DNA from: Streptomyces sp. SID5785
GTDB taxonomy: Bacteria; Actinomycetota; Actinomycetes; Streptomycetales; Streptomycetaceae
Assembly (NCBI RefSeq): GCF_009870065.1
Contig: NZ_WWIA01000365.1
Span: 1-35,897, forward strand
DNA: 35,897 bases
Direction of reading: 5' to 3'
This document shows, one piece after another, positions 5,878 through 31,690 of this stretch (the first letter of the stretch is position 1; each line of letters starts with the position of its first letter). Position numbers and translations under genes: made by a program. The notes below the pieces were generated by a model that saw only the letters and a program-made list of their open reading frames with translations, was not told the origin of the DNA and did not search any database.

Positions 5878-6093
5878 TCAGAGCGTCGACCTCAGGAACG
5901 TCGCCCACGATGCGCGAGTGAACGAGAGTCTCGGACCACAGTCCTGCTTCGAATCTCGTATCAACACAGGTCCGATGCCACCGACCCCACACTCCACGCA
6001 TTCACCCCCCGAGCCGTTGCTGTAAGACGACTTGAACCATGTCGTCTCGACATCGAGGGGGGTGCCCGTGGAACGTATGTGGTCGTCGCTCAT
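5878..6093 (-). CDS. DUF397 domain protein
   Basis: The 71-aa product contains the hallmark WFKSSYSNGSGGECVECG (residues 19-36), then VLIRDSKQ, and ends in the typical SFTRASWATFL element, all of DUF397. DUF397 proteins are small cytoplasmic partners of XRE/DUF5753 regulators in Streptomyces and are implicated in control of development and antibiotic production. Its ATG overlaps the stop of the upstream XRE gene by 4 bp (ATGA), so the pair is translationally coupled. It converges with the 5198 gene. Confidence 0.95.
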   Translation of the reverse strand: MSDDHIRSTGTPLDVETTWFKSSYSNGSGGECVECGVGGIGPVLIRDSKQDCGPRLSFTRASWATFLRSTL

Positions 6094-6938
6094 CGAATGT
6101 TCTCCTTCAGGGTTCGACTGATCAGCTGGCGTGAACGCTTGGTGTCGAGTGCAGCTGCCTGGATGAGCTCGAACGCGCGTGTGTACTCGCGTACGTGGGG
6201 TTCGCCCTCCAGGTAGACGGCATCGGTGATGCCGTCCCGGTAGACGACGTCAGGATCTTCGGGATCGGGGAAACCGAGGATCGTGAAGGCGCCGGTGATG
6301 GGGTGAGGAGCCGAGTCGAACGGCAGAACCTGGAGCGTGACGGAGGTCGAATCTCCTACCCCCAGGAGGCGTTCGAGCTGGCCGCGCATCACGGAGCGAC
6401 CGCCCACGAGGTTGCGGAGCGCGGCCTCGTGACAGATGAACGCTGCCTCTGGGGCATGCTCACGCGTCAACATCCCCTGACGCTCCATCCGTACGTCGAT
6501 GGCGCGCTCGACCTCGAACGGATCCGTCCGGGAGTCTGCGACATGGAGTGCCCGGATGTAGTCGGGCGACTGAAGAAGTCCCGGCACGACCTCGCACTGG
6601 TACTGCCTGAACGAGGCGGCGTCCTGCTCCAGTCCGATGTAGATGTTGAACCACTCCGGGATTCCCGACCCGTGAAGCTGCCACCAGCCCTTGGTCTTGG
6701 CCTCCTGCGCCAGCGACCGTAGAAAGCCGCGCAGCTCGTCGCTGGTCTCGTAGAGGCGGCAGAGCGCTTCCACGTCTGTCGGTTGGACGCGGCCGTGGCC
6801 CGTCTCCATCCGGTTGACCTTGGATCCGCTCCAGTCCATGGCCGCACCCACCTGGGCGCACGTCATGCCGCTCGTCTCACGCAGCTTCTTCAGTTCGATC
6901 GACAGTCGTCGGCGACGTGCCGTCGGTGATCCGGCCAT
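6090..6938 (-). CDS. XRE-family regulator with DUF5753 domain
   Basis: The 282-aa protein has an N-terminal XRE helix-turn-helix (about residues 12-70: LKKLRETSGMTCAQVGAAM, SGSKVNRMETGHGRV). A DUF5753 domain follows (about 95-275) with QYQCEVVPGLLQSPDYIRAL, RQGMLTREHAPEAAFICHEA and FTILGFPDPEDPDVVYRDG. This is the standard Streptomyces WhiJ-like regulator architecture. The ATG at 6938 is preceded by AGGGAGGA about nine bases upstream. It forms an operon with the DUF397 gene and is divergent from a GHKL ATPase at 7155. The ligand and targets are unknown; a palindrome at 7023-7035 is a candidate operator. Confidence 0.95.
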   Translation of the reverse strand: MAGSPTARRRRLSIELKKLRETSGMTCAQVGAAMDWSGSKVNRMETGHGRVQPTDVEALCRLYETSDELRGFLRSLAQEAKTKGWWQLHGSGIPEWFNIYIGLEQDAASFRQYQCEVVPGLLQSPDYIRALHVADSRTDPFEVERAIDVRMERQGMLTREHAPEAAFICHEAALRNLVGGRSVMRGQLERLLGVGDSTSVTLQVLPFDSAPHPITGAFTILGFPDPEDPDVVYRDGITDAVYLEGEPHVREYTRAFELIQAAALDTKRSRQLISRTLKENIR

Positions 6939-7022
6939 TGGAACGGGTCCTCCCTGCTAGCGGGACACAGTCTCAGTGCCAAGAGGAGGCATTGCCAACC
7001 ACTCGATGGAGGGAATCCCATC

Positions 7023-7035
7023 ATGCAAATTGCAT
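7023..7035. promoter_or_regulatory. Palindrome ATGCAA-A-TTGCAT in the divergent promoter region
   Basis: A perfect 6-bp inverted repeat with a single central base lies 84 bp upstream of the XRE gene and 120 bp upstream of the GHKL ATPase gene. A second palindrome, ATGCGCAT, is at 7042-7049. It is the least GC-rich patch in this gap, so a promoter with an operator is plausible; the XRE protein is a natural candidate to bind it. Confidence 0.45.
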
Positions 7036-7154
7036 AGCGGGATGCGCATGGTCACGCTTGGTGGTGGGTGAGGGGCGATCGGGTCACCAACTCGACGCCT
7101 CGACAGGCCGGTTGCGGCCCACCCCACCCACCGTGATCCTCCGGAGGGGGAGAG

Positions 7155-7811
7155 ATGGAGACACGACAGATCTGCGTGCGTCGTAAACCCTGGACGTTGG
7201 CGTTCGCGGCAGAACCCGAGGAACTGGCCGCCTTGCGCCGCATCACCGGCCTCCACCTGCGGTGCTGGGGGCTGCATCACCTCGTCGACGCCGCGCAGTT
7301 GTGCGTGACGGAGCTCGTCACGAACGTCATCGGACATGTGGGGCCGGGCACCCCGGCCGAGCTCTCGCTCGGCATGCGGGGCACGGCCGTGCGGATCGAG
7401 GTGCAGGACCCGGATCTCAGGGCGCTGCCCACCTTGCTGCGGGCGGCCGACGACGCCGAGGGAGGTCGCGGTATGGCCATCGTCGCCGCGACGGCCCGGC
7501 GGTGGGGGGTCCTCATCCAGGACGATCGAAAGGTCACGTGGTGTGAGCTGGCCACAGGGCTTGGACGACCGGGAGGCCACATCGACGACGACCGGGTGAA
7601 CCGGGCGGAGGCGCTGTTGGCGTTGTACTGCGAGGCGGAAGCCCTCCGGACAGCAGGGCCAAGGGCAGCGAGCGGCAGCCAGGGCCCCGACATCACCCGG
7701 GAGGCCACGGTCGGCGCTCTGATCGCGGATCTGCTCCGCTGGGCCCGGGCCCATGGCTATGACGCGGACGACGTGCTGAGCAGCGCCGAGGCACGCATCT
7801 ACGGCGAGTAG
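7155..7811 (+). CDS. GHKL ATPase / anti-sigma-factor-like ATP-binding protein
   Basis: The 218-aa protein has an N-terminal HATPase_c_2 domain of the SpoIIAB/RsbW type. The N-box is CVTELVTNVIGHV (about residues 50-62, Asn58), the G1 box lies around VQDPD and the G2 box at GGRGMAIVAA. The C-terminal 80 residues are helical and not recognised. Such proteins bind ATP and act as anti-sigma factors or signalling kinases beside XRE/DUF397 pairs in Streptomyces. The ATG follows a strong GGAGGGGGAGAG. It converges on the DrmB-like gene and is separated from it by a terminator hairpin. Confidence 0.88.
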   Translation: METRQICVRRKPWTLAFAAEPEELAALRRITGLHLRCWGLHHLVDAAQLCVTELVTNVIGHVGPGTPAELSLGMRGTAVRIEVQDPDLRALPTLLRAADDAEGGRGMAIVAATARRWGVLIQDDRKVTWCELATGLGRPGGHIDDDRVNRAEALLALYCEAEALRTAGPRAASGSQGPDITREATVGALIADLLRWARAHGYDADDVLSSAEARIYGE

Positions 7812-7844
7812 ACCCACCGAGGGTCCTCGCCGTCACCTGCACAT

Positions 7845-7880
7845 GCCCCCGCATCTCGATCTTCCTGGGAATGCGGGGGC
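7845..7880. terminator. Bidirectional hairpin terminator between convergent genes
   Basis: Arms 7845-7854 (gcccccgcat) and 7871-7880 (atgcgggggc) are perfect reverse complements with a 16-nt loop. It sits in the 97-bp gap between the GHKL ATPase stop and the last codon of the DrmB-like gene, so it can end both transcripts. It marks the left end of the 12-gene island. Confidence 0.75.
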
Positions 7881-7908: not shown

Positions 7909-9783
7909 TCAGACCTGGAGCAGGTTCGAGAAGAATCCGAGCTCCGGGTCGTCCGGAGTGCCGACGAGGAGCGCTCGGTCGAGCAGGATGTTGTTGTGCT
8001 CGCAGCTGGTCTCGGGGAGCATCACGCAGGCGTGGCACGCGGCCAGGTTGGTACCGCCGGTGCCGGACCTGCGCGACTCGACGCACAACGGATCCGACGA
8101 GCACCATTCGGCGCGGCGCACAGCAGAGTGGAGAGTGTCCGCGAGGCGTTCGGGCTCGCCCTGTGACACAAGTCCGCCAAGGCTGCCTGCCGAGTCGCTC
8201 GTGGCCGTGTAGATCAGCACGCCGGCCATCTGCTCGTCGGCGTAGAGCCGCTCGCGCAGGGCCGCCGCCGGATAGCCGGCGTCCAGACTCCACTCGTTGA
8301 TGAGCACATGCGCCAGGGTGTGCAGGAGAACCATGCGAGGGGTGGCGGGGGAGACCGGGACGTGCGCCGGGTCCGTGGCGCGTTGTTCCAGGAGCTTCTG
8401 GTGTGCGAAGCGAATCCTCTCCACGCGGGCGCCCGTGGCCAGAGCCGTCTCCCAGTCGTGCAACCGCTCCCCGTCGAGGCGCAGGAAGACGCCCTCGCCG
8501 CGTACCTCCATCGCCGGCAACCAGTTCAGATTCGAGGCGGCGAGCGCGGCCTCGTGCGCCTCCGTCGCCGAATCGGGTTCGGCGAGCCGCGTGAACGCCT
8601 TCAGGGCGCGTACCTCACGCAGCTTCTTCACCAGCATGGGGCCGGTCACACCCAATGGGCCCAGGACCTTCGGATCACCGAACGGAGGCTCGCAGACGAA
8701 CTGTTCCCCGTGAGAGTGCTCGCGATCGCTGTTGCCCGCCCGCAGGCGCTCGTACTCCTTGTTGCGCAGGGCCTGGTATCGATGTTCGAAAGTGGGGTTC
8801 TCCTCGCCCTGCGGATCCTCTTCTCGTTCGGCCGCGAGCAGTTCCATCACCTGATCCACGGACACCGGCGGCCCGTCGGGAAAGGCGCCATGGAGGAAGC
8901 CCTCGATCGCGGCCCTGCCCTCCAGCTGGCGCAGCGTCGACCATCGGTCCGCGAGCGGGTCGGCGCGGCCGTCGCTCCACGGTGGGATGGAGAGGGCCGA
9001 CTTGAGGACCGGCTGCCATGCGGACGACGAACCGCGCTGGATCGTGCGAGCCGTCTCGGCGCACGACTGCGCGGGGACCGACGTGCCGAGCCAGGGGCGG
9101 GTGCCTCGGCAGCGGAGGCCGAGGTCCTTCAGCGCGTTCTTGCGGAAGGATCCCTCCATCGAGACCTCGGGCACGGTGCCGCAGGTGCAGGACACGAGGA
9201 TCGACCGCAGTGACGAACTCCGCCCGGATGAGCGCAGCTTGAGTGTCCCGCCGCAGGTGCCCGCGGTCGCGCCGGAGCCGCCTCCACGCTCGGAGGAGCG
9301 GTGGACCCAGTGCCAGTACGGGAACTCGTCGATGTGTCCGGCCTCGCAGGCGATGACGAATCGGGAGGGGACCAGGTCGGCCTCACAGGTACCGCACGTG
9401 CTGCTTCCTGGCGGGGAGTTGAAGGACCGGTGCCGCTGGAGGTCCTTGCACTCGGGGCACGAGTGCATGAGGGGGAAGCGTCGTACGCGCAGTCCGTCCC
9501 TGCTGCTCTCGGCGGACGAAGGGGGCAGTCGGAAGTGGCTGACGCCCAGCAGCCGGGACAGACGCTGTTCGTGGATGCGTGGGGACTCGTCGCGGTCCCA
9601 GCGTGTCTCTGCCCCGTCCAGGCCGGAGACGATGAACGACTCCTGGTCGACGGCGATCATCGCCCCGACCCCGTACGTGGTGATCGCCTGTGCGCGGCGG
9701 ACCGCACCCCGGCGGAGCAGGTTGAGGGCGGGAACGGTGCTGTTCGCGCCGGTCCGGCGACGGCGGGCGGGGGGCGGGGTCAT
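7909..9783 (-). CDS. drmB: DrmB-like DUF1998 protein of a DISARM-type helicase pair
   Basis: From the ATG at 9783 the product is 624 aa. Near the N-terminus it has the DrmB-type segment AQAITTYGVGAMIAV (residues 31-45), then a zinc-ribbon-like CxxC pair (C109, C112, C130, C133). The C-terminal DUF1998 region starts at about 484 (HTLAHVLINEWSL) and ends in a Cys-rich cluster (CHACVMLPETSCEHNN, near residues 575-590). In DISARM, DrmB partners the DrmA helicase. The chosen start overlaps the drmA stop by 4 bp (ATGA), and the extra upstream codons of the open frame are inside drmA. It is the last gene of a four-gene unit. No DrmC phospholipase D follows, which departs from canonical DISARM. Confidence 0.87.
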   Translation of the reverse strand: MTPPPARRRRTGANSTVPALNLLRRGAVRRAQAITTYGVGAMIAVDQESFIVSGLDGAETRWDRDESPRIHEQRLSRLLGVSHFRLPPSSAESSRDGLRVRRFPLMHSCPECKDLQRHRSFNSPPGSSTCGTCEADLVPSRFVIACEAGHIDEFPYWHWVHRSSERGGGSGATAGTCGGTLKLRSSGRSSSLRSILVSCTCGTVPEVSMEGSFRKNALKDLGLRCRGTRPWLGTSVPAQSCAETARTIQRGSSSAWQPVLKSALSIPPWSDGRADPLADRWSTLRQLEGRAAIEGFLHGAFPDGPPVSVDQVMELLAAEREEDPQGEENPTFEHRYQALRNKEYERLRAGNSDREHSHGEQFVCEPPFGDPKVLGPLGVTGPMLVKKLREVRALKAFTRLAEPDSATEAHEAALAASNLNWLPAMEVRGEGVFLRLDGERLHDWETALATGARVERIRFAHQKLLEQRATDPAHVPVSPATPRMVLLHTLAHVLINEWSLDAGYPAAALRERLYADEQMAGVLIYTATSDSAGSLGGLVSQGEPERLADTLHSAVRRAEWCSSDPLCVESRRSGTGGTNLAACHACVMLPETSCEHNNILLDRALLVGTPDDPELGFFSNLLQV

Positions 9784-12700
9784 CGGGAAGCCTCCATGAA
9801 AAGGGCGGACTCGGCGTCGACGTCGCGCAGGCTCCACAAGGTGGGCCACGCCTCGCGATCCTCGGTCTCGTCGTCGTACGACTTGAGGAGAGAGGGAGCG
9901 CGGTTCCCCGGCAAGGGCTCGAAGAACAGACCGCCGTGGATGTCGGCCTCGTCGCACCACCAGTCCACGAACGCGTCGAACTCCTGAGCGGTGGCGGCAG
10001 CCTCCTCTGCGGCCACGTCGGTGACACGGTCGAGAAGCAGCGTCCTGATCTCGCCTCGGAGCCGGTCCTCGTAGTCGGCCACACGGCCGGCGGCGTCGTT
10101 GGCCCGAGCGGCGGGGATCAGAGCACGGGTCAGAGCCACGACCACCGCATGGAGTCCGCGGTCGCGGGCCCGTGCCGAGAACGGGGTGACCGAGGTGGAC
10201 TCGACCTCGCGGTAGAGCGCGGAGTGGAAGTGCTGGAAGCTCTCGTAGTGCGAACGGTCCCGAGATCGTGACGAGTTCAACATCACGGCGACCAGGCCGG
10301 GGTGGGCGCGGCCGACACGGCTGGTCGCCTGGATGTACTCGGCGGTCGTCTGCGGCTGGCCCATGACGGCCATCAGTCCGAGACGATCCACGTCGACACC
10401 CACAGCGATCATGTTGGTCGCGAGGAGGACGTCCACCGTGTCCTCGTCCGGGTACTTCTTCTCGATGCGCTTCAAGCGGGTGGGGATCTCACTCGCGTCC
10501 ACCCGGCTGGTCAACTCCGAGTAGTTCGCAACGGACCGCACGTCGACGCCCTCACGTGCGGCAAGGAGCTCCAGGTGGGCCACGACGTCGTCGTGGACCT
10601 GAAGTTCCGCGGCCGACAGCAATCGAAGGCTGTTGAAGTAGCCGACGAGGCTGACGTAGGCATCACGCACCTCGTCCGCGGTGCGCGCGTGCTTCGCCCG
10701 GTGCAGGAGGGTGGCGTACGTGCGGATGAGCAGGGTCGACTGGCTGGTGCCCGGGGCGAACAGACCCACGTACCTTCGGGTCGCCTTGTCCTCGCGCGGC
10801 GTCTCGACCGCGAACCAGGAGTCGCGGGCGTCCAGGCCGGCCGGCGGGAACTGTCGCACCTCCCGGTCGAAGAGATTCTGCCCCTGGTCCGCAGCGCGCC
10901 GGATCGTGGCAGTGGAAGCGATCACCTTGGGGCGGCCCGCCCACGGCCGGCCGGGAACGGCCGGGAGCGAGGAGAGTGCGTCCACCGCCGTCTCGTACAG
11001 GCCGGTGAGCGTGCCGAGCGGACCGGAGATGAGGTGAAGTTCGTCCTGGACGATGAGCTCCGGAGGCGGTGTCGCGTCGTCCCGATCACGGTTGAAGAGG
11101 GCGGCGGTGGCCGGTCGCCAGGGCATGGACGCGAACTTGTCCACGGTGGCGATCACCAGCGTCGGGCGGGCCGCGTAGACGGCCTCGTCGACCATGTGCA
11201 CCGGCAGACCGTCCGCGAAGGCACAGCCGGTGTTCGAGCAGCGTACGAACATGCGGCGGGCCTCCTGGTCCGCCTCGTAGTCACGTGCGTCGAGACGGGT
11301 GCCGCACCACGGGCAGGCATGCAGTTGGACAGGGTTCTCCTTGGCGAGGCGCTTGTCGAGATCGGCTCGCAGCTCCCGGAGCTTTTCGCCGGCGCTCTCG
11401 AGGGTGTTCGGCGTCGCCGACTTCCCCACCCACATCCCCAGGGAGAACTCTTCCTCCCCGAGCGTCGCCGGATCGGTGCGTCGCACCTGCTCCATGGCGC
11501 AGAGCAGGATCGCGGCACGCTCGAACTGCTGGAGCGTGAGCAGTCGCAGCGTGTAGCGCATCAGGACAGAGACGCCGCCGCCGTCGGCACCGAGGCGGAT
11601 ACGGCGGAGGAAGGAGGTGAGCGCGATCAGCCCGAGGTAGGCCTCGGTCTTTCCACCTCCTGTGGGGAACCACAGGAGGTCGGAGAACGCTCGGTCCGGG
11701 TGCGCGGGATCGTTCACCCCGGCCAGACACAGCAGCACGAAGGCGATCTGGAAGGGCCGCCAATGTCCCGCCTCCGGCCGCGGAACGCCCTGACGTCCGC
11801 TCTTCACCCAGGCGCTGCGCGCCCGCTGCTCCGCCATGGCGCGGTTGGCGAGCCGGAACGCCTGCATCAGGTCCGCTTCGGCAGCCAGCAGATCGATGCC
11901 CTCGCGGATCCTGGCCAGGGCTTCGCGACAGTCGCGGATTCGTTCCTGCGCGGGTTCGTGATGTTCCTCGTCCTTGAACGTGGCCGCTTCGAACTCCTTG
12001 GCCTCGATCCAGTGCTCGTACCCGTCCGCGAGCGCGCGCAGCGCGTCCAGGACCTCGGAGTCGGGGCGCTCGGCCAGGCCGACCATGGACAGGGACGAGG
12101 TGTCGATCTCTGGGTTGGAGTCGGTGAGGAGCACCTCGACCGAGGGCACGAACGAACTGCGCACCTCGGCGACAGCGGCCTCCCGGGGGTCGTTGACCCC
12201 GATCGGCGACGGGGTCCAGTCCCATTCCGCGGCGCATCCGTGGCCGACCGCGAAGGTCGGGGCGTGCCGATGGAGCAATCGGCTCGTCGCGACCTCGGGG
12301 TCGTGGGACGCCGTGTGCGCCCGGCGCTCGACGATGGAACTCGACCCGTCTGCCGACCGCACGACGAGCCCGCACTGGAAGAGTGCGAAGGCGTCCTGGA
12401 GTTCCCGCTCGCCGACCTTGTTCTCGTTGACCAGCGTGACCGTGATCGTGACCGTGCCGGAGATCGGGCTGCGGCGCCGGACGATGAACCGGAGCAGGGC
12501 CCCGAAGCCCAGATCGACCTCGAGACGCGGGTTCGGAGTCGACACGTCGATCGGCAGGACCGGCGCGAACACGACTTCCTCATGACGCCAGTGTTCGCGC
12601 TGTTCGGAGGTGGTACGCGCCTCGGCACGGCGAGCCGAGACCGGCTGACCGTCGGCGTCGATCGGCACGTACCTCGCGGCCCGCGGCTCGACAACAATCG

Positions 12701-13067
12701 ATCCACAGATGCTCGGATCGACCGCGAAGCTCATGCCCATCGAAGACGGTCGCCGGTCACCCGTCGTGTCGGGCTCCTGCGCCGGTGACTCCTCCCCGTC
12801 CCCACGTCCGCGGACAGGCGCCTCGTCGTCGCCCCGGTACTCGTCGGCGTCCTCGCGGAGGGCCTGTTCCGCGGCGGCGCTCGCCGGCATCGGGTACAGA
12901 ACGCCTGACAAGTACCGGTCGATCGGCGCGTCCTGGGTCAGCACCTCGTTCCCGTCCTCATGTGCCGCGTCCGGTGCCGGGCCGAACAGCTCACGTCGCA
13001 GCCCCACGAGCAGCTCCTCGTCGCGGACCCGATAGTGCTCGGCGTGCGGTCCTGCCGTGTGTGTCAT
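9780..13067 (-). CDS. drmA: DrmA-like SF2 helicase
   Basis: The ATG at 13067 overlaps the stop of the UvrD-like gene (ATGA) and gives 1095 aa. The helicase core shows motif I FPTGGGKTEAYLGL (about residues 466-479), motif II VQDELHLISGP (about 670-680, DELH rather than DEAH) and motif III ASTATIRRA. Motifs V-VI follow (ATNMIAVGVDVDRLG and YIQATSRVGR, about 910-920). A four-Cys insertion (CPWCG and CSNTGC, about 584-615) lies between motifs I and II. The N-terminal 460 residues are not assignable by eye. DELH, the zinc insertion and the adjacent DUF1998 gene match the DrmA helicase of DISARM. It probably translocates on DNA together with DrmB; the substrate here is inferred. Confidence 0.87.
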   Translation of the reverse strand: MTHTAGPHAEHYRVRDEELLVGLRRELFGPAPDAAHEDGNEVLTQDAPIDRYLSGVLYPMPASAAAEQALREDADEYRGDDEAPVRGRGDGEESPAQEPDTTGDRRPSSMGMSFAVDPSICGSIVVEPRAARYVPIDADGQPVSARRAEARTTSEQREHWRHEEVVFAPVLPIDVSTPNPRLEVDLGFGALLRFIVRRRSPISGTVTITVTLVNENKVGERELQDAFALFQCGLVVRSADGSSSIVERRAHTASHDPEVATSRLLHRHAPTFAVGHGCAAEWDWTPSPIGVNDPREAAVAEVRSSFVPSVEVLLTDSNPEIDTSSLSMVGLAERPDSEVLDALRALADGYEHWIEAKEFEAATFKDEEHHEPAQERIRDCREALARIREGIDLLAAEADLMQAFRLANRAMAEQRARSAWVKSGRQGVPRPEAGHWRPFQIAFVLLCLAGVNDPAHPDRAFSDLLWFPTGGGKTEAYLGLIALTSFLRRIRLGADGGGVSVLMRYTLRLLTLQQFERAAILLCAMEQVRRTDPATLGEEEFSLGMWVGKSATPNTLESAGEKLRELRADLDKRLAKENPVQLHACPWCGTRLDARDYEADQEARRMFVRCSNTGCAFADGLPVHMVDEAVYAARPTLVIATVDKFASMPWRPATAALFNRDRDDATPPPELIVQDELHLISGPLGTLTGLYETAVDALSSLPAVPGRPWAGRPKVIASTATIRRAADQGQNLFDREVRQFPPAGLDARDSWFAVETPREDKATRRYVGLFAPGTSQSTLLIRTYATLLHRAKHARTADEVRDAYVSLVGYFNSLRLLSAAELQVHDDVVAHLELLAAREGVDVRSVANYSELTSRVDASEIPTRLKRIEKKYPDEDTVDVLLATNMIAVGVDVDRLGLMAVMGQPQTTAEYIQATSRVGRAHPGLVAVMLNSSRSRDRSHYESFQHFHSALYREVESTSVTPFSARARDRGLHAVVVALTRALIPAARANDAAGRVADYEDRLRGEIRTLLLDRVTDVAAEEAAATAQEFDAFVDWWCDEADIHGGLFFEPLPGNRAPSLLKSYDDETEDREAWPTLWSLRDVDAESALFMEASR

Positions 13068-14974
13068 GCGAGCTGCTCCTTCTCCTCGTCGGACTCGCTC
13101 TTCCGATACCTGCCGATGCCGGTGATACGCGGAGCGATCCACACGCCCCGGTCGCCCAGCCCGGCATTCGCCCCGGCGGCGGTGCTGCCCGACACCGTCT
13201 CCAACGTGTCCACCCGCAGTGCACAGATCTCGTCGGGCCACCAGGGTTCCCACCCCCGATTCACCTTCTGCACCTGATACAGGTCGTGGGTGAACCTTTC
13301 GGAGGCCTCGCCGATCTCACGACCTTCGTGCAACAGGACGTACGGTGGGCTCTGCCACTCGCCGAGCGGAAGGTCGTGTCGTCTGCGCAGGACGACCTCG
13401 TCGCCGGGCCGGACCCGCTCCAGGAGGTAGGACTGGGTCGCGACGGCACCGTGCTCGCCCGCGGCCGGGGCGTCCGGGGAGACGTCATGGGCACCCGCCA
13501 CGATCCCGGCCCGGTCCCATGCTTTGAATCCACCGACGTACTGGCGTCCGCTCCTCCGGCGTTCCGCGCGCTTCACGATCGGAACCCGGGGTCCGTCCAT
13601 GAAGTGGAGGTCCTGCCGCGCGCGAGTCATGGCCACGTAGAGGGCCCACGCCTCGGCCCGCAGGTCCAGGTTCTCCTTGAACTGCTTGCGCAGTTCGGCA
13701 ACGGTCGGAGGCGTCAGCACGATCACCCGGTCGAACTCGAGGCCCTTCGCTCGGTGCGCCGTGGACACCGTGAGCCTTGCCGCCTCGCGGTCGGCCGCCT
13801 CGTCCGGGAAGCGCCGGTCGGCGACCGCGCGACGCAGCCGGTCGAGGTCGACGATGTCCCGCCCGGGACCGCGGGCGACCCGCCGTAGCACGGTCCACAG
13901 GACCTCTGTGTCCGGCTCGTACGGCAGAGGGATCGAGGCGAGAAGGGAGCGGAACCTTTCTGCCGACAGCGAGGAGGCCTCCGTACTGCGCAACAGCTCG
14001 GCCACCCAGTACGGGATCGGCCGTTCCTCCAACGGCTGCCGCAACCTGTGATCGATTCCATGGGCGTGCAGAAGTCCGGAGACGACGAGAGCCTGGCGAT
14101 TGTCGCGAGTCAGAACGGCCGTGGTGTCGCCGGAGGTACGGAGACTGTCCAGCGCGAGCCGGTCGGTGAGGCCCGCCATCCGGTTCGCGGGGTCGAGCAG
14201 CAACTCACGCAGCTCGTCGAAGAGCCGGGTGGCCTCCTCCTCGTCCGCGATCTCCTGGAGCCGGGGGCCGTGGGCGAGCGCGACCCGGGCCTCCGGCGTG
14301 GCGGCGCGGAAGTTCTCGCTCAGCCGCAGCTCCACGAGATCCAGGGCGAACGAGGCACGCAGCCAGGTGAAGAAGAACCCGGTCTCGTCGATCCGCTCGG
14401 AGGCATCCTCGATCTGGAACCCGTACACGAACTGAGCGGTGTCGCCGACCACGGTGAAGCCGCAGGTCTCCTGATGGACGTCGAGCAGCGTCTGGACGAG
14501 CTCCCGGCGGGCCCCGACCAGGTCCTGGACCTCGTCGATCATGACGTGGGCCGGCGGCACCGCGTCCCCGGCCGCCAGCACACCCTGCGCGACCGCGTCG
14601 GCCGCCGCCGCGATGCGCTCGTCGAAGCCGACTGAGCTCCATTCCCGGTCCGGGTACGCCTGTGTGACGATGCCGTACGCCCAGGCGTCGAAGGTCTGGG
14701 CCCGGACCCGACGAGCACGATCCCCGTGTCGGGCGAGCCGCTCGCGCAGCTCGCGCGCAGCCGCCCGCGAGAAGGTCAGCACGAGGATCTCCGAGGCCTC
14801 CAGGGCCTCGTCGGGGTCCTCGTGCCCGCACAGTTGGTCGAGGCGACGCACCAGCGTGTGTGTCTTGCCCGCACCTGCCATGGCGGTGACGACGACACGC
14901 GCGTCCCACGGCTGCTCGACCACGGCCCGCTGCTCGGCGGTGAGCGGGGGCGAGTCGAGGTAGGCGTCGGTCAC
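13064..14974 (-). CDS. UvrD/Rep-like superfamily 1 helicase
   Basis: The 636-aa protein contains the SF1A set. Motif I is AMAGAGKTHT (31-40), motif Ia LTFSRAAARELRER (66-79), motif II MIDEVQD (145-151) and motif III GDTAQFVYGFQ (177-187). SENFRA (motif IV), STAHRAKGLEFDRVIVL (motif V, about 407-423) and YVAMTRARQDL (motif VI, about 443-453) follow. The last 160 residues after motif VI are not a standard UvrD tail and may hold a small beta-barrel-like domain. It starts with GTG overlapping the previous stop (GTGA) and overlaps drmA by 4 bp, so it is translated in step with both. No nuclease motif is visible. Its likely role is 3'-5' ssDNA unwinding in the defence complex; this is inferred from position. 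Confidence 0.92.
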   Translation of the reverse strand: MTDAYLDSPPLTAEQRAVVEQPWDARVVVTAMAGAGKTHTLVRRLDQLCGHEDPDEALEASEILVLTFSRAAARELRERLARHGDRARRVRAQTFDAWAYGIVTQAYPDREWSSVGFDERIAAAADAVAQGVLAAGDAVPPAHVMIDEVQDLVGARRELVQTLLDVHQETCGFTVVGDTAQFVYGFQIEDASERIDETGFFFTWLRASFALDLVELRLSENFRAATPEARVALAHGPRLQEIADEEEATRLFDELRELLLDPANRMAGLTDRLALDSLRTSGDTTAVLTRDNRQALVVSGLLHAHGIDHRLRQPLEERPIPYWVAELLRSTEASSLSAERFRSLLASIPLPYEPDTEVLWTVLRRVARGPGRDIVDLDRLRRAVADRRFPDEAADREAARLTVSTAHRAKGLEFDRVIVLTPPTVAELRKQFKENLDLRAEAWALYVAMTRARQDLHFMDGPRVPIVKRAERRRSGRQYVGGFKAWDRAGIVAGAHDVSPDAPAAGEHGAVATQSYLLERVRPGDEVVLRRRHDLPLGEWQSPPYVLLHEGREIGEASERFTHDLYQVQKVNRGWEPWWPDEICALRVDTLETVSGSTAAGANAGLGDRGVWIAPRITGIGRYRKSESDEEKEQLA

Positions 14975-17900
14975 TTACGGCTCCAGAGGTGTTCGAACTG
15001 GTTGAAGGCGAGCTGGGTGTCGAAGTTCGTGATGTTGTCACTGACGTTGAGGATCAGGCAGGTGTCCTTCCCGCCGTTCTTGGGACCGCGCAGTCCGCGC
15101 CCGATCATCTGCTGGTAGACGTTCGTGCTGTAGACGGGCCGCGCGACGACCACGACACGGGTGGCGGGGGCGTCGAAGCCCTGGGTGAGTACGCCGTAGT
15201 TGGTGAGCACGCGGACGCCTCCCGAACGAAAGGCGTCGATGCGCCGGCGCCTGTCCTGGGCGCTCGTGGTCGAGTCCACCGACGTCGACGGGACGAGGCG
15301 ATCGTTCAGCTTCGCCGCCAGCAGTTTGGCGTGGTCGACGGAGGTGGCGAAGAGGAGCACCGGCCAGTCCTTCGGCAGTGCCGCGACCTCCTCCACGATG
15401 CGCAGACTGCGTTCGTGGTCGTCGGCCAGCCGCTGTTCGGCCGCACGGGACAGCATCGCCATCCGCTCGGCGTGCTCCTTCTCCTGGGCGTCGAGCATGA
15501 TCTCTCCACCCAGGAGTGTGCGGTGCTCCACCTGCGCGAGCATGCCCCACTCCTGGAGCGCGCGATACGGGTCCTCGTCCGGGAAGACGCCCTCGTCGAG
15601 CCGGCGGCCGCCGAAACGGTTGATCAGGCGTTGCGTCTCGACCTCGTTGGTGTTGCGGAACGGAGTCGCGGTCAGACCCAGCAAGTGACGCTCCGTCACA
15701 CTGTGTGTGAGCCCGAGCTGTTCGAGGATCTGGGTGTAGCGGGGCGAGATGGCGGTGTGCGCCTCGTCCACGATGACCAGAGCAGCCCCGCGGAGCCAGG
15801 CGTACTGGTCCGCGGAGAGTCGGCTGTGCAGCTTTGCGTCCGTGGCGACCACCAGGTGTGGATGGTCGACGACCTCACTGACCTCGTTGGTGCCCCACAG
15901 GCGGCTGATGCGCAGTGGCCGCTCCGCTCCTACCTTGCCCCACACGAACTTCCAGCTCTGTACTGCCTGTTCGCACAGTTCCTCGGTCTGCGCGATCCAC
16001 AGGAGCGGCCCCGACAGGTCGCCGACCTGCTTGACCCAGCGGATGACCGCCTCCGAGGTGACTCGCGTCTTACCCGCACCGGTGGGAAGCGAGAGCATGC
16101 CCCGCTGAGGGGCGAACCGGTCGAGCATCGTGGTGATGTTGCGGACCAGGTCTTCCTGGTAGTCGTGCAGCCGAGGAAAGTCCTGAGGCCCGTCCACGGT
16201 CTCGTACACCGGCGGCGCGGGAGTTCGGGAGCCGGCGAACGGGGCGGGCAGTTCGAGCTCGGAGACGAACGCGATGGCGCCGGAGGAGCCGGTGTACGAA
16301 GTGGGGGCATCCGGGAACCTCGCCTGGATGTCACGCACATGGGCCTGCAGCACGCCGTCGCCGTGCGCGTTGAAGGCCATCTGGGCCACCCGATGGCCTG
16401 AAGGCTCGATCCCCGCGTTCTCTTTCAGCTCGGCGTCCATCAGCCCCTGGGGGAGGCCCACCCGCAGCGCCTCGGCTCCGACCAGCAACTCGATCTTGGC
16501 GATCACGTCTCCGGCATTGCGCACTGCCTCTCGAGCAGCCTTGAGCGCGCTGTCCTTGGCCATCCGCTCCTGGTGTTCAAGGACCAGACGGCAGCCGGAC
16601 GAGCCCAGGCCCAGGCCGAGTTCTCGGTCGATCAGGCGCAGCATCGGCTCGGGCGCGAGCGGCAGGCGCACCTTGACCGTGTCGCCCTGGCGCACTGCGT
16701 CCAAGGGGGTGGCGTTCGTGCCGTTCGGAGTGCGGACGACTGCTTCCAGCTCGATGCAACACAGCACCTTCGCACTGCGCGCCGCGCCACTCAGGCGTTG
16801 TCGGAGAGCCGGGTACAGCTCCACGATCGGCGTCGGGACACCGTCGGGCACCTCACGGGTCTCCTTCGTGATGACGTCGGTGTGGCGCTTCATCCCCCAG
16901 CGCTCGACCATCAGCTCGGCATCCTCGACCGTGGTCACCAGGAGCGCGGGGATCAGCTCCGCGCGCAGGTCTCGGTACTCGGCCGTGCCCACGGCGACCG
17001 TGATCTCGTCGTCGGGACGTGTACCCCACTCTTCCCCGATGCGGCAGCGGGTCAGGGACTCTTCGGGGAAGTCCGCCTCGAAGCGGGTGAGCATCACATA
17101 GGTCCGGCCGACGAACGCGTCGTCCTCGCTCCGGGCGAGCTCGTCGTGCAGGGCCGCCCAGCGGTCGCCCGGTACTTCGTCGACGGTGAGGGGAAGGCCC
17201 AGCTTGCGTGCCTTCTCCGGGGAGATGTCGGCCACCGGGAGCACGTCGCGATACGCGGAGAGCTGCGGCCCCACGGCGTCGTCCAGACGCTTGAGGCCCT
17301 GGGACGTCGAGATGAATCCGTACTTCCTCAGCATCCAGTGGATCGGCGACCTGACGGTCCGCCGAGAGCTGGACTGAGCGCCTACCTGGAGGGTCCAACT
17401 GGACACCACCGAAGCGTCGGGCAGCGCCTTCAGGAAAGCCGCACGCGACTCCTCGGAGAGGGCCCGAAACAGGTGCAGCGGACCTCCGACGGCGGAGCCG
17501 TCCAGCTTCACGCGCGACATCTGCGGCCTTGCGACGTTCGACGGCAGTGTCTTCAGGTAGGCGTTGTAGACCTCTTCCCGGTACTCCTCGAACCAGTGCT
17601 CCTGTTCCGGTCGAAGCCCGATGACGGGACGCTCGTGCAGTCCGATCTCACGGAAGAAGTCGAAGTCGTCGGCGTGGAACTCGGTGTCCACGGCAATGCT
17701 CGGCTCGCGGTCGGCTGCGACCACGGCGCCCGGCAGCATGCAGTCCCGGACGGGCCGGAAGGTGCCCAGTGCCGTGCGTACACGCAGCTTGTTGCGATAG
17801 TCCGGCTCCCGGCTCAGGACCAGGTGGCCCACACGCCGTGCGCCGGCCTGCCGGAAAAGCTCCCAGAATCGCTGCCACTCGTTGTCCCCGTAACCGTCGA

Positions 17901-19752
17901 AGCCCTGGTCGAGGACGCTGACGAAGCGGCCCTCGACGTCTGCCTCTCGGATGCCGAGCTCGTTGAGTGCGTGCGCGAGGGACGGGTTCCGCGCGATCTC
18001 GTCGACCACGTACACCAGTGACTCGCGCAGGCCGCCCTCGTCGGCGCGACGGAAGACCTTGCCCGGGACCGGGGCGACGAGACCGTGCTCCTCGGTGAGC
18101 ACGATCTGCGCGCGACGCGCCTCCTCGGCGTAGGGAGAGCGGATCTCGATCATCTCGGCCAGGATGCGGATCGCCGCAGCCGAGGCCTCGGCGGTGCCGC
18201 ATGCGACCAGCGCCTCCAGCCACTCCCGGACCTCCGCCCGCTCCTGGCCGGCGGCGTCCAGGATGTGCTCGACCTTGCCGGACCGGAGAGTGTTCGCCTC
18301 GACGGCGGGGTGCAGCCAGTTCGAGGGCCGGCCGGGGCACTCGTGCCAGATGCGGAGCCAGCCGTCCAGTCGTTTGAGGTCCTTGTCGAGCCGAGGGTGG
18401 ACACGCAACTCGTGCGGTACCCGCAGGACCCCGTCCTGGTCGGGCAACGACGGCCGCTGGGCGGTTCGGGCCCAGATCTCCCGGGTCAGGAACTCGTCCG
18501 CCCAGCTGATGGCTTCCTTCACGCGGCCAGGCAGCAGAGCCAGGTAGGCGGCAGGGTCCTCGGCCGGGGCGAGGGCCGACAGCGAGTCGACGACGAGCGC
18601 CGCAGACACCTTGATCATCTCTTCGTTGAAGGGGGAAGAGTCGAGCAGGTTCTGGCGGTCCTCGTTGGTCTTCCAGGCGCCGTTCAGGATGCCGCTCAGC
18701 GACATCTCGTACTTCGTCGGGAAGAACGACCAGAAGCGTCCGCGACCGCGGGCCTTCGCGCTGCCGAACACGCCGCGCTCCACGTCGAGTTCGAGCGAGG
18801 GCACGGCCCACGAGACGTCGAGGGAGACACGGTCGTGCAGCTCACCGGCGTCCTTGCGGGCCTCCGCCCCCGGTTCGTGTCCGATCGTGAAGACGCGCCA
18901 GTGGTCGGTGAGTTCGGCCTTGCCGGGGCGGGTCTCCTTCACCGTGTGCAGATCGCCCAGGCGCGTGGTCGTCAGTACGCGGCGGGCCGAAGGACGGACA
19001 CGTCGGTCTTCGAGGACGACCTCTGCCACGTGAGGGGAGAAGAGCTGGAAACCGAGAGGGAACTCCTCCCGGTCCTGGCCGTCGACCCGCGCTCTGCCAC
19101 CGTGCATGTCCAGTCCGAGCCGCTTGTCCGCGCCGGGGAGCAGCGGCAGTCGTACGACGGTCGTGGCCCAGTTGAGCAGCTCGTCCAGAACGGGGTCTGT
19201 GGCGCGCTCGGTCCGCTCGTCGAGAGGACGGGCCATGCGCAGTACAGGAGCCTCGAAGTTGTCGCCGTACCGTTCGCGCACACCCGGGACGGAACGGATC
19301 TGCTCCTGGGACCAGGCCCGATCGAAACCGAAGCTGCCGGTGCGGCTGAAGAATTCCGGAGTGTCCGTGACGACGAGGACTGATTTCACGCCGACGCCGA
19401 ATCGCCCGATCTGGCCTCCGCGTTTACGTGACATGCTCATGCGCAGAATGGTCTCGGCGCCCTCGGGGGTCACCGGAGTTCCTTCGTTCGCGCAATAGAG
19501 GTGTGCGGCGGTGAGGACCACGTGTGTTCGCCCGCCCGGCTCCGCCGCGATCTCGTCGGCGGCGTTCTGCACGAGTTCGAAGAGCTGGCGGTCTCCGTAT
19601 CCGCCCTGGGTGATGCGGCGTTCGCCGTTGGAGTGCTCCGCGACGAGTCCGGGGTCGATCGCGTACGTCCTCAGCACACGCGAAGACTGGTCGATCACGG
19701 TATTCAGGACGGACGACGGTTCAGTGGTCACGGAACTCCGATCCTCGGGCAT
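14971..19752 (-). CDS. Sacsin-like GHKL ATPase fused to SF2 (Res/DEAH) helicase
   Basis: This 1593-aa protein joins two engines. The N-terminus has a GHKL/sacsin-type ATPase: N-box ELVQNAADE (59-67, Asn63), a G1-like YCANEGTPVT (86-95) and G2 GRFGVGVKSVL (116-126). A long middle region of roughly residues 300-1150 is unassigned. The C-terminus is an SF2 helicase: SLPTGAGKTRVTSE (about 1219-1232), IVDEAHTAIS (about 1322-1331), LLGLTATPFRN (about 1353-1363) and QQMIGRGLRGP (about 1545-1555). It is the first gene of unit III. ATG 19752 has no ribosome site; GTG 19731 (residue 8) has GGAG nearby and may be the true start. Fusion of a chaperone-like ATPase to a restriction-type helicase suggests ATP-gated DNA handling; no nuclease domain was recognised. 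Confidence 0.88.
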   Translation of the reverse strand: MPEDRSSVTTEPSSVLNTVIDQSSRVLRTYAIDPGLVAEHSNGERRITQGGYGDRQLFELVQNAADEIAAEPGGRTHVVLTAAHLYCANEGTPVTPEGAETILRMSMSRKRGGQIGRFGVGVKSVLVVTDTPEFFSRTGSFGFDRAWSQEQIRSVPGVRERYGDNFEAPVLRMARPLDERTERATDPVLDELLNWATTVVRLPLLPGADKRLGLDMHGGRARVDGQDREEFPLGFQLFSPHVAEVVLEDRRVRPSARRVLTTTRLGDLHTVKETRPGKAELTDHWRVFTIGHEPGAEARKDAGELHDRVSLDVSWAVPSLELDVERGVFGSAKARGRGRFWSFFPTKYEMSLSGILNGAWKTNEDRQNLLDSSPFNEEMIKVSAALVVDSLSALAPAEDPAAYLALLPGRVKEAISWADEFLTREIWARTAQRPSLPDQDGVLRVPHELRVHPRLDKDLKRLDGWLRIWHECPGRPSNWLHPAVEANTLRSGKVEHILDAAGQERAEVREWLEALVACGTAEASAAAIRILAEMIEIRSPYAEEARRAQIVLTEEHGLVAPVPGKVFRRADEGGLRESLVYVVDEIARNPSLAHALNELGIREADVEGRFVSVLDQGFDGYGDNEWQRFWELFRQAGARRVGHLVLSREPDYRNKLRVRTALGTFRPVRDCMLPGAVVAADREPSIAVDTEFHADDFDFFREIGLHERPVIGLRPEQEHWFEEYREEVYNAYLKTLPSNVARPQMSRVKLDGSAVGGPLHLFRALSEESRAAFLKALPDASVVSSWTLQVGAQSSSRRTVRSPIHWMLRKYGFISTSQGLKRLDDAVGPQLSAYRDVLPVADISPEKARKLGLPLTVDEVPGDRWAALHDELARSEDDAFVGRTYVMLTRFEADFPEESLTRCRIGEEWGTRPDDEITVAVGTAEYRDLRAELIPALLVTTVEDAELMVERWGMKRHTDVITKETREVPDGVPTPIVELYPALRQRLSGAARSAKVLCCIELEAVVRTPNGTNATPLDAVRQGDTVKVRLPLAPEPMLRLIDRELGLGLGSSGCRLVLEHQERMAKDSALKAAREAVRNAGDVIAKIELLVGAEALRVGLPQGLMDAELKENAGIEPSGHRVAQMAFNAHGDGVLQAHVRDIQARFPDAPTSYTGSSGAIAFVSELELPAPFAGSRTPAPPVYETVDGPQDFPRLHDYQEDLVRNITTMLDRFAPQRGMLSLPTGAGKTRVTSEAVIRWVKQVGDLSGPLLWIAQTEELCEQAVQSWKFVWGKVGAERPLRISRLWGTNEVSEVVDHPHLVVATDAKLHSRLSADQYAWLRGAALVIVDEAHTAISPRYTQILEQLGLTHSVTERHLLGLTATPFRNTNEVETQRLINRFGGRRLDEGVFPDEDPYRALQEWGMLAQVEHRTLLGGEIMLDAQEKEHAERMAMLSRAAEQRLADDHERSLRIVEEVAALPKDWPVLLFATSVDHAKLLAAKLNDRLVPSTSVDSTTSAQDRRRRIDAFRSGGVRVLTNYGVLTQGFDAPATRVVVVARPVYSTNVYQQMIGRGLRGPKNGGKDTCLILNVSDNITNFDTQLAFNQFEHLWSRK

Positions 19753-20197
19753 GAGCGGGGCGGCTGATGTTCACGGACGCGTGCGAGGTGTACGTGGTTG
19801 CGGGGGAGCTCGTGGGGCGCTTGTCGTTCTGAATCCAACGTTCGGATTCGAACATGGAGAAGGGCACACGAAAGTGCGGTGGGAGCAAGGAGAGGAGGGT
19901 GCGTGTCGAGTGGCTGGAAGTGCCTACGCAGGGCAGGGCACACCTGTGGCAGGTCTCGGAAGAATGTCTTTTCCGATGCAGGTGGGGCTGCTGACAAGGA
20001 CATTAGCCCCGCTGTCGATCGATCCGCAAGACCGTTTCTGCATTCCTTTCGGGGGAGATTCGGAATTGCATACTCCGCTTTTCTCGGACCGACTTCCGTG
20101 GGCGTTTCGTGTACGAACCAAGGGGGCTTATAGGATTTTTGCTGACGAATCTGGGCAACTGGGTCATCGAATGATTCCGCTCGGAGTGACGTCCGGT

Positions 20198-20218
20198 CTG
20201 TCAAAGGGCGTTTGACAG
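20198..20218. promoter_or_regulatory. Operator-like inverted repeat upstream of the HTH-GHKL gene
   Basis: CTGTCAAA (20198-20205) and TTTGACAG (20211-20218) are perfect 8-bp inverted arms around a 5-bp centre. The right arm includes TTGACA, a minus-35-like hexamer. It is 83 bp upstream of the GTG at 20301, whose product begins with an XRE-type HTH, so autoregulation is a natural reading. Binding is inference. Confidence 0.6.
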
Positions 20219-20255
20219 GCCCGGGTGCGTCAATCTCGGCCCCGATCCCGACGGG

Positions 20256-20276
20256 TAGGGTGTCTGTCGACCGACA
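20256..20276 (+). promoter_or_regulatory. Candidate minus-10 TAGGGT overlapping an imperfect 16-bp palindrome
   Basis: TAGGGT at 20256-20261 fits the Streptomyces TAGRRT minus-10 pattern. tgtctgtcgaccgaca at 20261-20276 is a palindrome with one mismatched pair (two positions) and overlaps the last base of the hexamer. No good minus-35 lies at 16-18 bp, and TTGACA (20212-20217) is too far away, so the promoter call is weak. Confidence 0.35.
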
Positions 20277-20300
20277 CAACCACCACAGACCGGAGCGCAG

Positions 20301-22442: not shown

Positions 22443-23434
22443 AGGCGTGGCCGTACAGAAGACTGCCGGGCACGGTCGCGGTTCGCGTCGACGGGGTCTC
22501 GGTCCGTTCCCCGCAGGGGGAGACCGAGGAGCTCGACGCGTTGGCTCGCTCCGTCGTCGACCGCGTGGTGGTGGTCGGCCAGGTGGAGACCGAGAACTGG
22601 GACACAGCTCGGCTGAACGTCTCGGTGACGACTCCCGGTCGACTCACCGAGCCCGGAGCGCCGTGGAAGGACGTGGTCGTCGCCGCGGTGCTGACCGAGC
22701 GGGCCACCAACCTGCGGGTCACCACCGTCCTGAGTCCCGACGGGGACGGCGGCCGGGAGTGGCGCGGCACGCTGCCGGTGCTCCGCTCCGACATCTACGA
22801 CCGCGCGACGCTCACGGCGCAGGTGGTCGCCACCGTCGGCGGAGTACCGGGCCGAGCCGTCGCGGAGTCCACGGAGGACTGGATCGTGGATGTGCGTACG
22901 GATACGCCCACCCGCGACCGTCCCTTCGACATCAAGGAAGTCGGCTTCCGCACCGGTCCGAGCATGCTGCGCCCGTTCGCCGACGTGCCGTGGAAGGTCA
23001 GCGCGACCGGTCGGCTCCCGATCGTGCACATCAACACTGACTTCGAGGGCATGACCGACCTGCTGGCGGCGGAAGGACAGACGGCTGCCGGCCTCGTCAA
23101 CGAACTGCTCGTCGCGCAGATGGCCGCAGACGTGTGGACGGCCGTCTTCCACGCGGCGTTGGGCAACCTGGAGATCGAGGAGGACGGGGCGCCGGTGCTG
23201 CCGCACGACTGGAGGGGGGAGGTGCTGCGCGAGATGCTCCCCGACGTGCTGCCGCACCTGTCGGTGGAGGACGCGCTCCGCGAGGCGCACCGTCGACGCA
23301 CCGGGACCACGGGCTGGACCGAGCTTCAGCCGAACATCCACTACGCAGCCTCCCGACGCGCGGATGTGCCGAAGGCCCTGTCCGCGACCGTGCGCGGACT
23401 CGACCGACTCAACCGCAAGGACGCCGAGGCATGA
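22439..23434 (+). CDS. Unrecognised 331-aa protein of the HTH-GHKL cassette
   Basis: I do not recognise this family. The product starts with GTG inside the preceding stop (GTGA) and ends inside the ATG of the next gene (ATGA), so it is tightly coupled to both. The first 200 residues are strand-rich with many Val/Thr alternations (for example VVVVGQVETENWDTARLNV). Residues about 205-280 are helical, including MTDLLAAEGQTAAGLVNELL. No membrane segment, signal peptide or nuclease motif is seen. Its fixed position between a GHKL ATPase and a DUF6339-like protein suggests a partner subunit of the ATPase. Nearby longer frames starting at 22202 are inside the upstream gene. Confidence 0.82.
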   Translation: MKAWPYRRLPGTVAVRVDGVSVRSPQGETEELDALARSVVDRVVVVGQVETENWDTARLNVSVTTPGRLTEPGAPWKDVVVAAVLTERATNLRVTTVLSPDGDGGREWRGTLPVLRSDIYDRATLTAQVVATVGGVPGRAVAESTEDWIVDVRTDTPTRDRPFDIKEVGFRTGPSMLRPFADVPWKVSATGRLPIVHINTDFEGMTDLLAAEGQTAAGLVNELLVAQMAADVWTAVFHAALGNLEIEEDGAPVLPHDWRGEVLREMLPDVLPHLSVEDALREAHRRRTGTTGWTELQPNIHYAASRRADVPKALSATVRGLDRLNRKDAEA

Positions 23435-24315
23435 CGGACCGGCCCCAGTACATTCCCGAGCACCTCGCCCGGCTCTCCGACGACGCCGCGACCTCGCACC
23501 TGACGGAGGGGCTCCTCAGTGGGAGGGAAGACGTACGGTGCATCGACCTGGACAAGAACACCGAGCCGCTGCCCCCTCAGGAGCGGTGGCGCGCGCAGCC
23601 GATCCGCGACCTCGTCGAGGATGCCATGCACGCGTTCCGTGAGGAGCCGTCCAGGCCCAAGGCCGACGCCTGGCTCGCACCACGCCTGCACGCCACCCTG
23701 CGCCTCACACGGGCCGAAGCTGCGGACCACGACATCTGGAACCACGTGGCGCTCGCGGTGGCACCGGACTACGTGGTCTGGCGTCACGTCTCCCGTCCTC
23801 GACACGGTCGCCCCTCCGTCAACGGCGACCGCTTTCGAGGCGTGTACCACAAGCAGGCCTTCGCCCGCCTCTGGTGGGCCGCGGAACTCTTCCGGGACGG
23901 CCCCGACTACGGGCCGGTCGTGACGGCGTGCGGCAATCAGGACGTCCTGAATTCAGTGCTGCGTACCGCGGAACTCGTCAGTCACCGGCCGACGGCCCTT
24001 GCGATCGTGGATCTGCTGCGGCGCGGGGTGGTGACGAGCACCCGCGAGGTGGTCGCCGTCTCCGCGGCCGTGAACGCCTCCGCCGCCACGCTTGCCTACG
24101 ACGTCCTCGCCCCGGACGTCCCGCGTGAGGCCGAGGCCGTACGGGCCTGGATCGACGGAGCGGAATCGGCCGGCGCAGTGCCGCGCCGCACTCTGTCGTT
24201 CGACGGACCGCCCGAGGAGAAGGCCCCCGAGGCGTCGGTGCGATTCCTGTCGGACTATTTCGAGGGGCTCTTCGTGGACGCTCCGGTGCGGGGGAGGGGC
24301 AGCGAGGCTCCCTGA
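23431..24315 (+). CDS. DUF6339-like protein
   Basis: The 294-aa product begins MTDRPQYIPEHLARLSDD. It contains AWLAPRLHATLRLTRAEAAD (about 79-98) and DIWNHVALAVAPDYVVWRH (about 100-118), which I associate with DUF6339, a family of unknown function. It is mostly helical with no visible catalytic triad or metal site. The ATG overlaps the previous stop by 4 bp. Its 3' end overlaps the convergent methyltransferase gene by 61 bp (24255-24315), so transcripts from the two units are antisense to each other there. The family name is from memory and moderate; the coding call is strong. Confidence 0.75.
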   Translation: MTDRPQYIPEHLARLSDDAATSHLTEGLLSGREDVRCIDLDKNTEPLPPQERWRAQPIRDLVEDAMHAFREEPSRPKADAWLAPRLHATLRLTRAEAADHDIWNHVALAVAPDYVVWRHVSRPRHGRPSVNGDRFRGVYHKQAFARLWWAAELFRDGPDYGPVVTACGNQDVLNSVLRTAELVSHRPTALAIVDLLRRGVVTSTREVVAVSAAVNASAATLAYDVLAPDVPREAEAVRAWIDGAESAGAVPRRTLSFDGPPEEKAPEASVRFLSDYFEGLFVDAPVRGRGSEAP

Positions 24316-31677: not shown

Positions 31678-31690
31678 GTCATTCCTCGTG

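Follow-up and report, generated by a model that had tools for sequence, protein, structure and literature searches.

DISARM systems of class 1 consist of DrmD, DrmMI, DrmA, DrmB and DrmC, and DrmMII and DrmE are features of class 2. The text of the paper on the Serratia DISARM structure reports that the DrmAB complex binds DNA with single-stranded 5' overhangs, that a trigger loop holds the complex, that its ATPase activity is lower on DNA carrying 5-methylcytosine (5mC), and that it works without DrmC, which is described as dispensable and often missing (PMC9142583). A 2025 preprint by Bell et al. describes uncharacterized DISARM-like classes as well as ARMADA, and finds YprA-family helicases in a DISARM-like clade (PMC12458937), while restriction operons with GHKL, superfamily 2 (SF2) helicase, DCM and VSR genes were described as early as 2008 (Iyer et al., PMC2292703). 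Here we analysed a stretch of 35,897 nucleotides (the window), contig NZ_WWIA01000365.1 of the draft assembly GCF_009870065.1 of Streptomyces sp. SID5785. It carries the genes sacHel-uvrD-drmA-drmB, all on the minus strand and named in the order of transcription (the arm), and beside them xre713, X331 and a DUF6339 gene, divergent from sacHel, with vsr, dcm336 and dcm465 facing them (the hub; Table 1). Taken together, arm and hub appear to be a modular form of DISARM-type immunity that has not been described before.

An earlier note on this DNA had proposed a DrmA-DrmB pair led by two other helicases, and both parts of that description hold. DrmA passes the NCBIfam model DISARM_DrmAS (NF038325; 1016 bits, cut-off 950) and matches the solved Serratia DrmA (7s9v_A) with an E value of 8e-181; DrmB, with its DUF1998/MZB domain, is encoded as a separate gene, passes DrmB_fam (NF038324; 465 bits, cut-off 240) and matches 7s9v_B with an E value of 4.5e-77. 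The N-terminal ~120 residues of Serratia DrmA are absent from the window protein, which has retained an acidic loop bounded by the anchors flanking the Serratia trigger loop (these anchors allowed the loop to be excised in 9 of the 14 DrmA rows inspected and not in 5). Gene calls, Pfam and NCBIfam confirm the UvrD-like helicase and the sacsin-SF2 fusion before drmA. SacHel matches Pfam ResIII and Helicase_C, the NCBIfam model P_loop_sacsin (64.9 bits, cut-off 50) and a RadD-like model, and its predicted fold resembles human sacsin SR1 (5v44, E 1e-4). UvrD matches Pfam UvrD-helicase (8e-24) and PADLOC GajB (9.5e-26). The N-termini of the arm proteins align with those of their orthologues. The 4-bp overlaps are present at all three junctions (GTGA for sacHel/uvrD, ATGA for uvrD/drmA and for drmA/drmB), and their evidential weight is small because any TGA stop preceded by A, G or T formally overlaps a start codon. 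This drmA is the only one in the draft genome.

The four-gene arm is a stable set and not a strain-specific loss. Full-length sacHel was found in 25 of 150 genomes of the same genus (own included), with 33-77% identity to the window protein in the 24 others, 22 of which have uvrD-drmA-drmB after it. A NERD-superfamily 1 (SF1) gene takes the uvrD position in G097 (L062), drmA runs off the contig in G144, another piece lying on a different contig, and the uvrD frame is short (425 amino acids) in G070. A scan of named genomes gave 320 relatives in all, the best 80 of which, from 15 genera (the named loci), were analysed: sacHel stands beside uvrD in 79, drmA in 78 and drmB in 77, and all four genes lie together on one strand in 77 of these 80 actinobacterial loci. 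The exceptions are two loci cut by a contig end (L127, L138) and one in which the 2.5 kb that follow sacHel contain no match to uvrD (L158). Start/stop overlaps recur at the three junctions in 77, 73 and 64 of the 77 loci, which is supportive only. The motor and ATPase motifs are kept across the named loci (DEAH of sacHel in 80, Walker A of DrmA in 77, DExQ of UvrD in 78), stricter patterns giving 65-77 of 80. No relative was found in viral contigs scanned with DrmA alone, a query that reaches close relatives only.

Trees were built from 60 DrmA and 60 DrmB proteins, comprising 28 sacHel-linked rows (of ~100), 12 of class 1 DISARM and 20 others. In both trees 27 of the 28 sacHel-linked rows form one clade, with Shimodaira-Hasegawa-like approximate likelihood-ratio test (SH-aLRT) support of 100 for DrmA and 97 for DrmB, and class 1 DISARM forms a separate clade with a support of 100. 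A distinct clade associated with UvrD and sacsin-helicase genes, which the earlier note would take as support for a new type, thus exists outside class 1; its relation to class 2 is unsure, because the comparison comprises just four class-2-like rows on long branches. The sister of the sacHel-linked clade is a Tsukamurella plasmid locus with uvrD and without sacHel; in that locus a RelA/SpoT-domain gene (L033, 10753-12147) precedes uvrD-drmA-drmB. The DrmA and the DrmB of G097 each branch close to the sigma/Photobacterium group of their tree, outside the main clade, and sacHel has therefore met a second DrmAB lineage. Several plasmid DrmAB pairs without an annotated DrmC neighbour UvrD or NERD helicase genes, so that an SF1 helicase beside DrmAB in place of DrmC seems to be a wider theme. 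A Sphingomonas plasmid (L220) carries drmD-methyltransferase-drmA-drmB, with no annotated drmC, between cas3 and other type I-E CRISPR genes.

As the earlier note had stated, the locus lacks drmC; when a lone drmC was sought in the rest of the draft genome (1157 contigs, 93% complete), two DrmC models gave 0 matches. The same search gave a strong match in 9 of 10 control genomes with a long DrmA. Across the 25 arm genomes it gave 2 strong matches, 7 weak ones and none in 16; one strong match shares its contig with a second long DrmA (G029), and the other is a fragment with a stop (G139). The case in which drmC was just lost in this strain, named in the note as one that would count against a new type, is ruled out, since DrmA and DrmB belong to clades of their own, linked to UvrD and sacHel and outside class 1, and the drmC-less arm recurs. 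The idea that other motors replace the missing activity found no support. A missing DrmC needs no special replacement, because it is reported as dispensable, and the motifs recognised in UvrD and sacHel are those of motors and ATPases; no nuclease was found in either protein, sacHel residues ~409-1175 not having been searched alone. The sacHel model covers residues 20-1175 (mean predicted local distance difference test score (pLDDT) 77.9, predicted template modelling score 0.49), and Hsp90/sacsin/GyrB-type folds are among the matches listed for it, over about the first 390 model residues.

Confined to the arm, the earlier description covered only part of the system: in most cases the GHKL, X331 and DUF6339 genes and the vsr and C5-methyltransferase genes belong to the conserved unit as well. 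Xre713 matches Pfam HTH_3 and, with its GHKL part only, PADLOC PDC-M33A (1e-23). Beyond the helix-turn-helix (HTH) domain it folds like MutL, MORC3 and Hsp90 ATPases (MutL: Z 12.5, root-mean-square deviation 4.4, 292 residues), in a model with a mean pLDDT of only 64.7. X331 has no PADLOC match and the DUF6339 protein has a weak one to PDC-M33C (0.003). Within flanks of up to 10 kb at the named loci, xre713 was found in 75, X331 and the DUF6339 gene in 74 each, dcm336 in 73, dcm465 in 65 and vsr in 63. At the 18 non-Streptomyces loci among them the counts are 13 for xre713, 12 each for X331, the DUF6339 gene and dcm336, 8 for vsr and 7 for dcm465; two of the five that lack xre713 have almost no upstream flank. 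An alignment of 19 sacHel-xre713 intergenic stretches showed just short conserved blocks.

The two methyltransferases of the hub differ at the PCQ motif, whose cysteine is catalytic in C5-methyltransferases; Dcm336 is accordingly predicted to be inactive. Among 90 open reading frames (ORFs) of the dcm336 type, 81 have P-R, 5 have PCQ and 4 another motif (all PCQ and other rows were kept in this count; two of the PCQ rows, L211 and L212, are each the second methyltransferase gene of their locus), and 76 of 77 dcm465-type ORFs have PCQ. A methyltransferase match was present in 87 of 93 loci examined: 77 with both types, 4 with P-R only, 3 with PCQ only and 3 with incomplete or other genes. These counts are ORF-based; a strict regular expression gave both types in just 51 of 80 loci, an undercount due to its too tight first motif. 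The counts suggest that an active and an inactive methyltransferase are kept side by side, and the putatively dead enzyme may read or steer 5mC.

The genes xre713 and DUF6339 co-occur in the same 32 of 150 genomes (own included), and 23 of 25 arm genomes have the hub next to the arm. Hub and arm occur without MutL-Z1 in the stretches examined of 14 genomes (flanks short in G139 and G017) and with MutL-Z1 but no DUF4420 nuclease in 8, the window included; G144 has hub, arm, MutL-Z1 and the DUF4420 nuclease. In 6 genomes the hub stands with MutL-nuclease-Z1 and no adjoining DrmAB (G099 has a DrmA elsewhere), and in 3 its neighbour is a different DrmAB pair accompanied by a small SF1 helicase, xre713 being represented there by an orthologue with an N-terminal sigma70 part (detected by Pfam in two, by BLAST in the third). 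Three kinds of arm, each made of restriction-type genes, thus occur with the hub. The sigma70-bearing orthologues lie at 6031-9627 in L198, 5808-10745 in L199 and 5904-9530 in L200, with sigma70 regions 2, 3 and 4 present in L198 and L199. A second Streptomyces DrmAB group has a large sigma70-like leader without GHKL (L203, 3900-6941; L036, 10114-13935), followed by a small SF1 helicase.

We hold with moderate confidence that this is a chromosomal, modular, methylation-gated anti-phage locus in which DrmAB-UvrD-sacHel is one exchangeable effector arm. In the mechanism that we infer, Dcm465, with its catalytically dead partner, would mark host DNA, and Vsr would mend deaminated 5mC. The HTH-GHKL protein, together with X331 and the DUF6339 protein, would bind DNA and license the response. 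DrmA and the DrmB canopy would then load on foreign DNA that lacks the mark and has single-stranded ends, and would translocate as in DISARM, a proposal made by analogy with the Serratia DrmAB properties and because the acidic loop is kept. UvrD would supply a further motor, of SF1, and in sacHel the sacsin-type ATPase would serve as a clamp that is coupled to the SF2 motor of the same protein; the four proteins would presumably form a complex. Since no recognisable nuclease is encoded in the arm, the arm would most likely block or unwind phage DNA, or pass it to Vsr or host nucleases, rather than degrade it itself. As a more tentative extension, to which we give somewhat less than even chances, one marking and recognition hub, with its GHKL protein fused to HTH or sigma70, may serve swappable arms (DrmAB-UvrD-sacsin-SF2, MutL-nuclease-Z1, DrmAB-SF1), with the dead methyltransferase reading or steering 5mC. 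If so, a shared hub would join DISARM-type and MORC-type restriction in one modular immune family.

Several observations weigh against this methylation-gated, modular locus. The methyltransferase genes are transcribed as a unit of their own, and in PADLOC their proteins match other families better than DrmMII; the sister locus in Tsukamurella has uvrD-drmAB without sacHel; and the hub is found without the arm in 9 of 32 genomes. Two of the 25 arm genomes (G095 and G097, both without xre713) and several non-Streptomyces loci carry the arm without the full hub, which is therefore not strictly needed; in G097 vsr and both methyltransferase genes directly precede sacHel. Such cases could fit a DISARM-like arm that is complete in itself and, next to it, an independent MORC/MZA-type restriction system, the two sharing an island without a common mechanism. 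This is rather unlikely, although the arm without a hub in G095, L149 and L159, the six genomes with hub and MutL-nuclease-Z1 but no DrmAB beside them, and the GHKL/SF2/DCM/VSR operons already on record (PMC2292703) speak for it. Hub and arm adjoin in nearly all arm genomes and across genera, their head-to-head layout suggests shared control, and in the 14 genomes without MutL-Z1 in the flanks (two of them short) a hub independent of the arm would lack an effector.

An ordinary DISARM whose accessory genes were lost or replaced, with DrmAB, a 5mC methyltransferase, a dispensable DrmC and no new mechanism, would explain why DrmA passes the DISARM model and why DrmC is missing. We regard this as improbable: in the DrmA tree and the DrmB tree alike the arm proteins fall into a clade of their own, the UvrD and sacHel partners are fixed in 77 of 80 loci, and no DrmD, DrmMI or DrmE match was found in the proteins scanned. 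A DNA-repair cassette with a YprA/MrfA-like helicase pair, UvrD, a RadD-like SF2 helicase and Vsr is more improbable still. The SF2 part of sacHel does resemble RadD, Vsr repairs mismatches, and YprA/MrfA function in repair according to the text of Bell et al. (PMC12458937), but the distribution is patchy (25 of 150 genomes), the neighbouring genes are of restriction type, and DrmA matches DISARM far better than it does YprA (E 8e-181 vs 0.007).

Compared with class 1 DISARM, the arm shares the DrmA-DrmB core, the operon layout, the motifs and the acidic loop; it differs in having uvrD and sacHel instead of DrmD, DrmMI and DrmC, in its separate DrmA and DrmB clades and in the shorter DrmA. As regards the DISARM methyltransferase, two C5-methyltransferases, one of them predicted dead, lie in a separate nearby unit, and their DrmMII matches are weaker than those to DruM2 or MTase_II. 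The DISARM-like plasmid loci of Tsukamurella, Rhizobium, Azospirillum and Rhodococcus opacus also have DrmAB without DrmC beside UvrD/NERD helicase genes, and Dcm and Vsr are frequently close by, as here, but neither a sacsin-SF2 fusion nor an HTH-GHKL/X331/DUF6339 hub was seen in them. ARMADA II resembles the locus in its GajB-like helicase and Vsr-type nuclease; however, as its text describes, ARMADA fuses the canopy and the Vsr domain to the helicase and carries BrxHII and PglX genes (PMC12458937), whereas the canopy here is a separate drmB and no BrxHII or PglX-type match was found in the proteins scanned. The main text of that preprint, supplements apart, contains no sacsin or histidine-kinase term. 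The hub and the accessory MutL-Z1 arm present the gene set of MORC/paraMORC and MutL systems and of MZA (GHKL ATPase, Z1 SF2 helicase, DCM, VSR). They differ from these in that the hub also partners DrmAB arms, which the text of PMC2292703 available to us does not mention, and that one methyltransferase is putatively dead. To the PADLOC candidate PDC-M33 the hub shows partial matches only, by xre713 and, weakly, by the DUF6339 protein, X331 having none; the open-licence literature yielded no paper on PDC-M33. Within that literature, which leaves aside subscription papers, supplements and most preprints, we recognised no description of the sacsin-SF2/UvrD/DrmAB arm or of the hub.

The locus bears on how DISARM tells self from non-self and on which nuclease it uses. 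Across actinobacteria its DrmAB core persists in the absence of DrmC, accompanied by an unvarying set of other motors and by a methylation/GHKL hub that can be separated from it. The partnering of this hub with other effectors amounts to a natural swap experiment on which parts decide target recognition and which the kind of kill. That a defence locus should conserve an apparently dead C5-methyltransferase next to an active one can also be tested directly.

Table 1. Features of the arm, the hub and the adjoining genes in the window.
Feature	Position	Strand	Description
Inverted repeat	7845-7880	-	After drmB; possible terminator without T run; sequence and fold
drmB	7909-9783	-	624 amino acids; MrfA-type Zn-binding domain
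drmA	9780-13067	-	1095 amino acids; short form without N-terminal part of Serratia DrmA
uvrD	13064-14974	-	636 amino acids; SF1 helicase, GajB-like; Pfam and PADLOC
sacHel	14971-19752	-	1593 amino acids; first arm gene; N-terminal sacsin/Hsp90-type GHKL ATPase, long middle, C-terminal SF2 helicase
xre713	20301-22442	+	HTH and GHKL (MutL/MORC/Hsp90-type) ATPase; divergent from sacHel
X331	22439-23434	+	331 amino acids; GTGA overlap with xre713; kept in 74/80 named loci
DUF6339 protein	23431-24315	+	294 amino acids; Pfam; ATGA overlap with X331; 74/80 named loci
dcm465	24255-25652	-	C5-methyltransferase, intact PCQ; Pfam and motif
dcm336	25649-26659	-	C5-methyltransferase fold, PRV for PCQ; Pfam, motif, alignment to 3g7u
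vsr endonuclease	26652-27083	-	TIGR00632, 112 bits (cut-off 97.85)
Z1 helicase (MzaC-like)	27096-30350 (as ORF)	-	True start probably nearer 30.1 kb; Pfam Z1, PADLOC MzaC; accessory arm
MutL/MORC-like GHKL protein (MzaB-like)	30115-31695	-	Pfam HATPase_c_3, PADLOC MzaB; accessory arm

The MutL-Z1 genes of the window (27096-31695, minus strand) lack the DUF4420 nuclease that accompanies six loci without DrmAB: with the L211 protein as query, no DUF4420/MzaD-type PD-(D/E)XK nuclease match was found in the window. Among MutL-Z1 loci, tallied at hub loci only, the nuclease is present in 7 of 15 and absent from 8. The MutL-Z1 genes with and without the nuclease differ in MutL identity to the window protein (57-78% vs 50-54%), which may mean that the contrast reflects few events.

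Three long minus-strand ORFs (6957-7817, 19728-21446 and 32189-35893) were rejected as genes, having no Pfam or PADLOC match and resembling shadow ORFs. The terminator that the earlier note had placed after drmB is plausible: an inverted repeat is present there, but its fold z is just -1.6 against shuffles and a scan for a stem followed by a T run gave none at it. The GHKL ATPase gene that follows (HATPase_c_2, 7155-7811) is on the plus strand and convergent with the arm. Further downstream of drmB lies a DUF5753 HTH gene (6090-6938, minus strand), and relatives of this gene and of the HATPase_c_2 gene were found in 34 and 33 of the 80 named loci, respectively.

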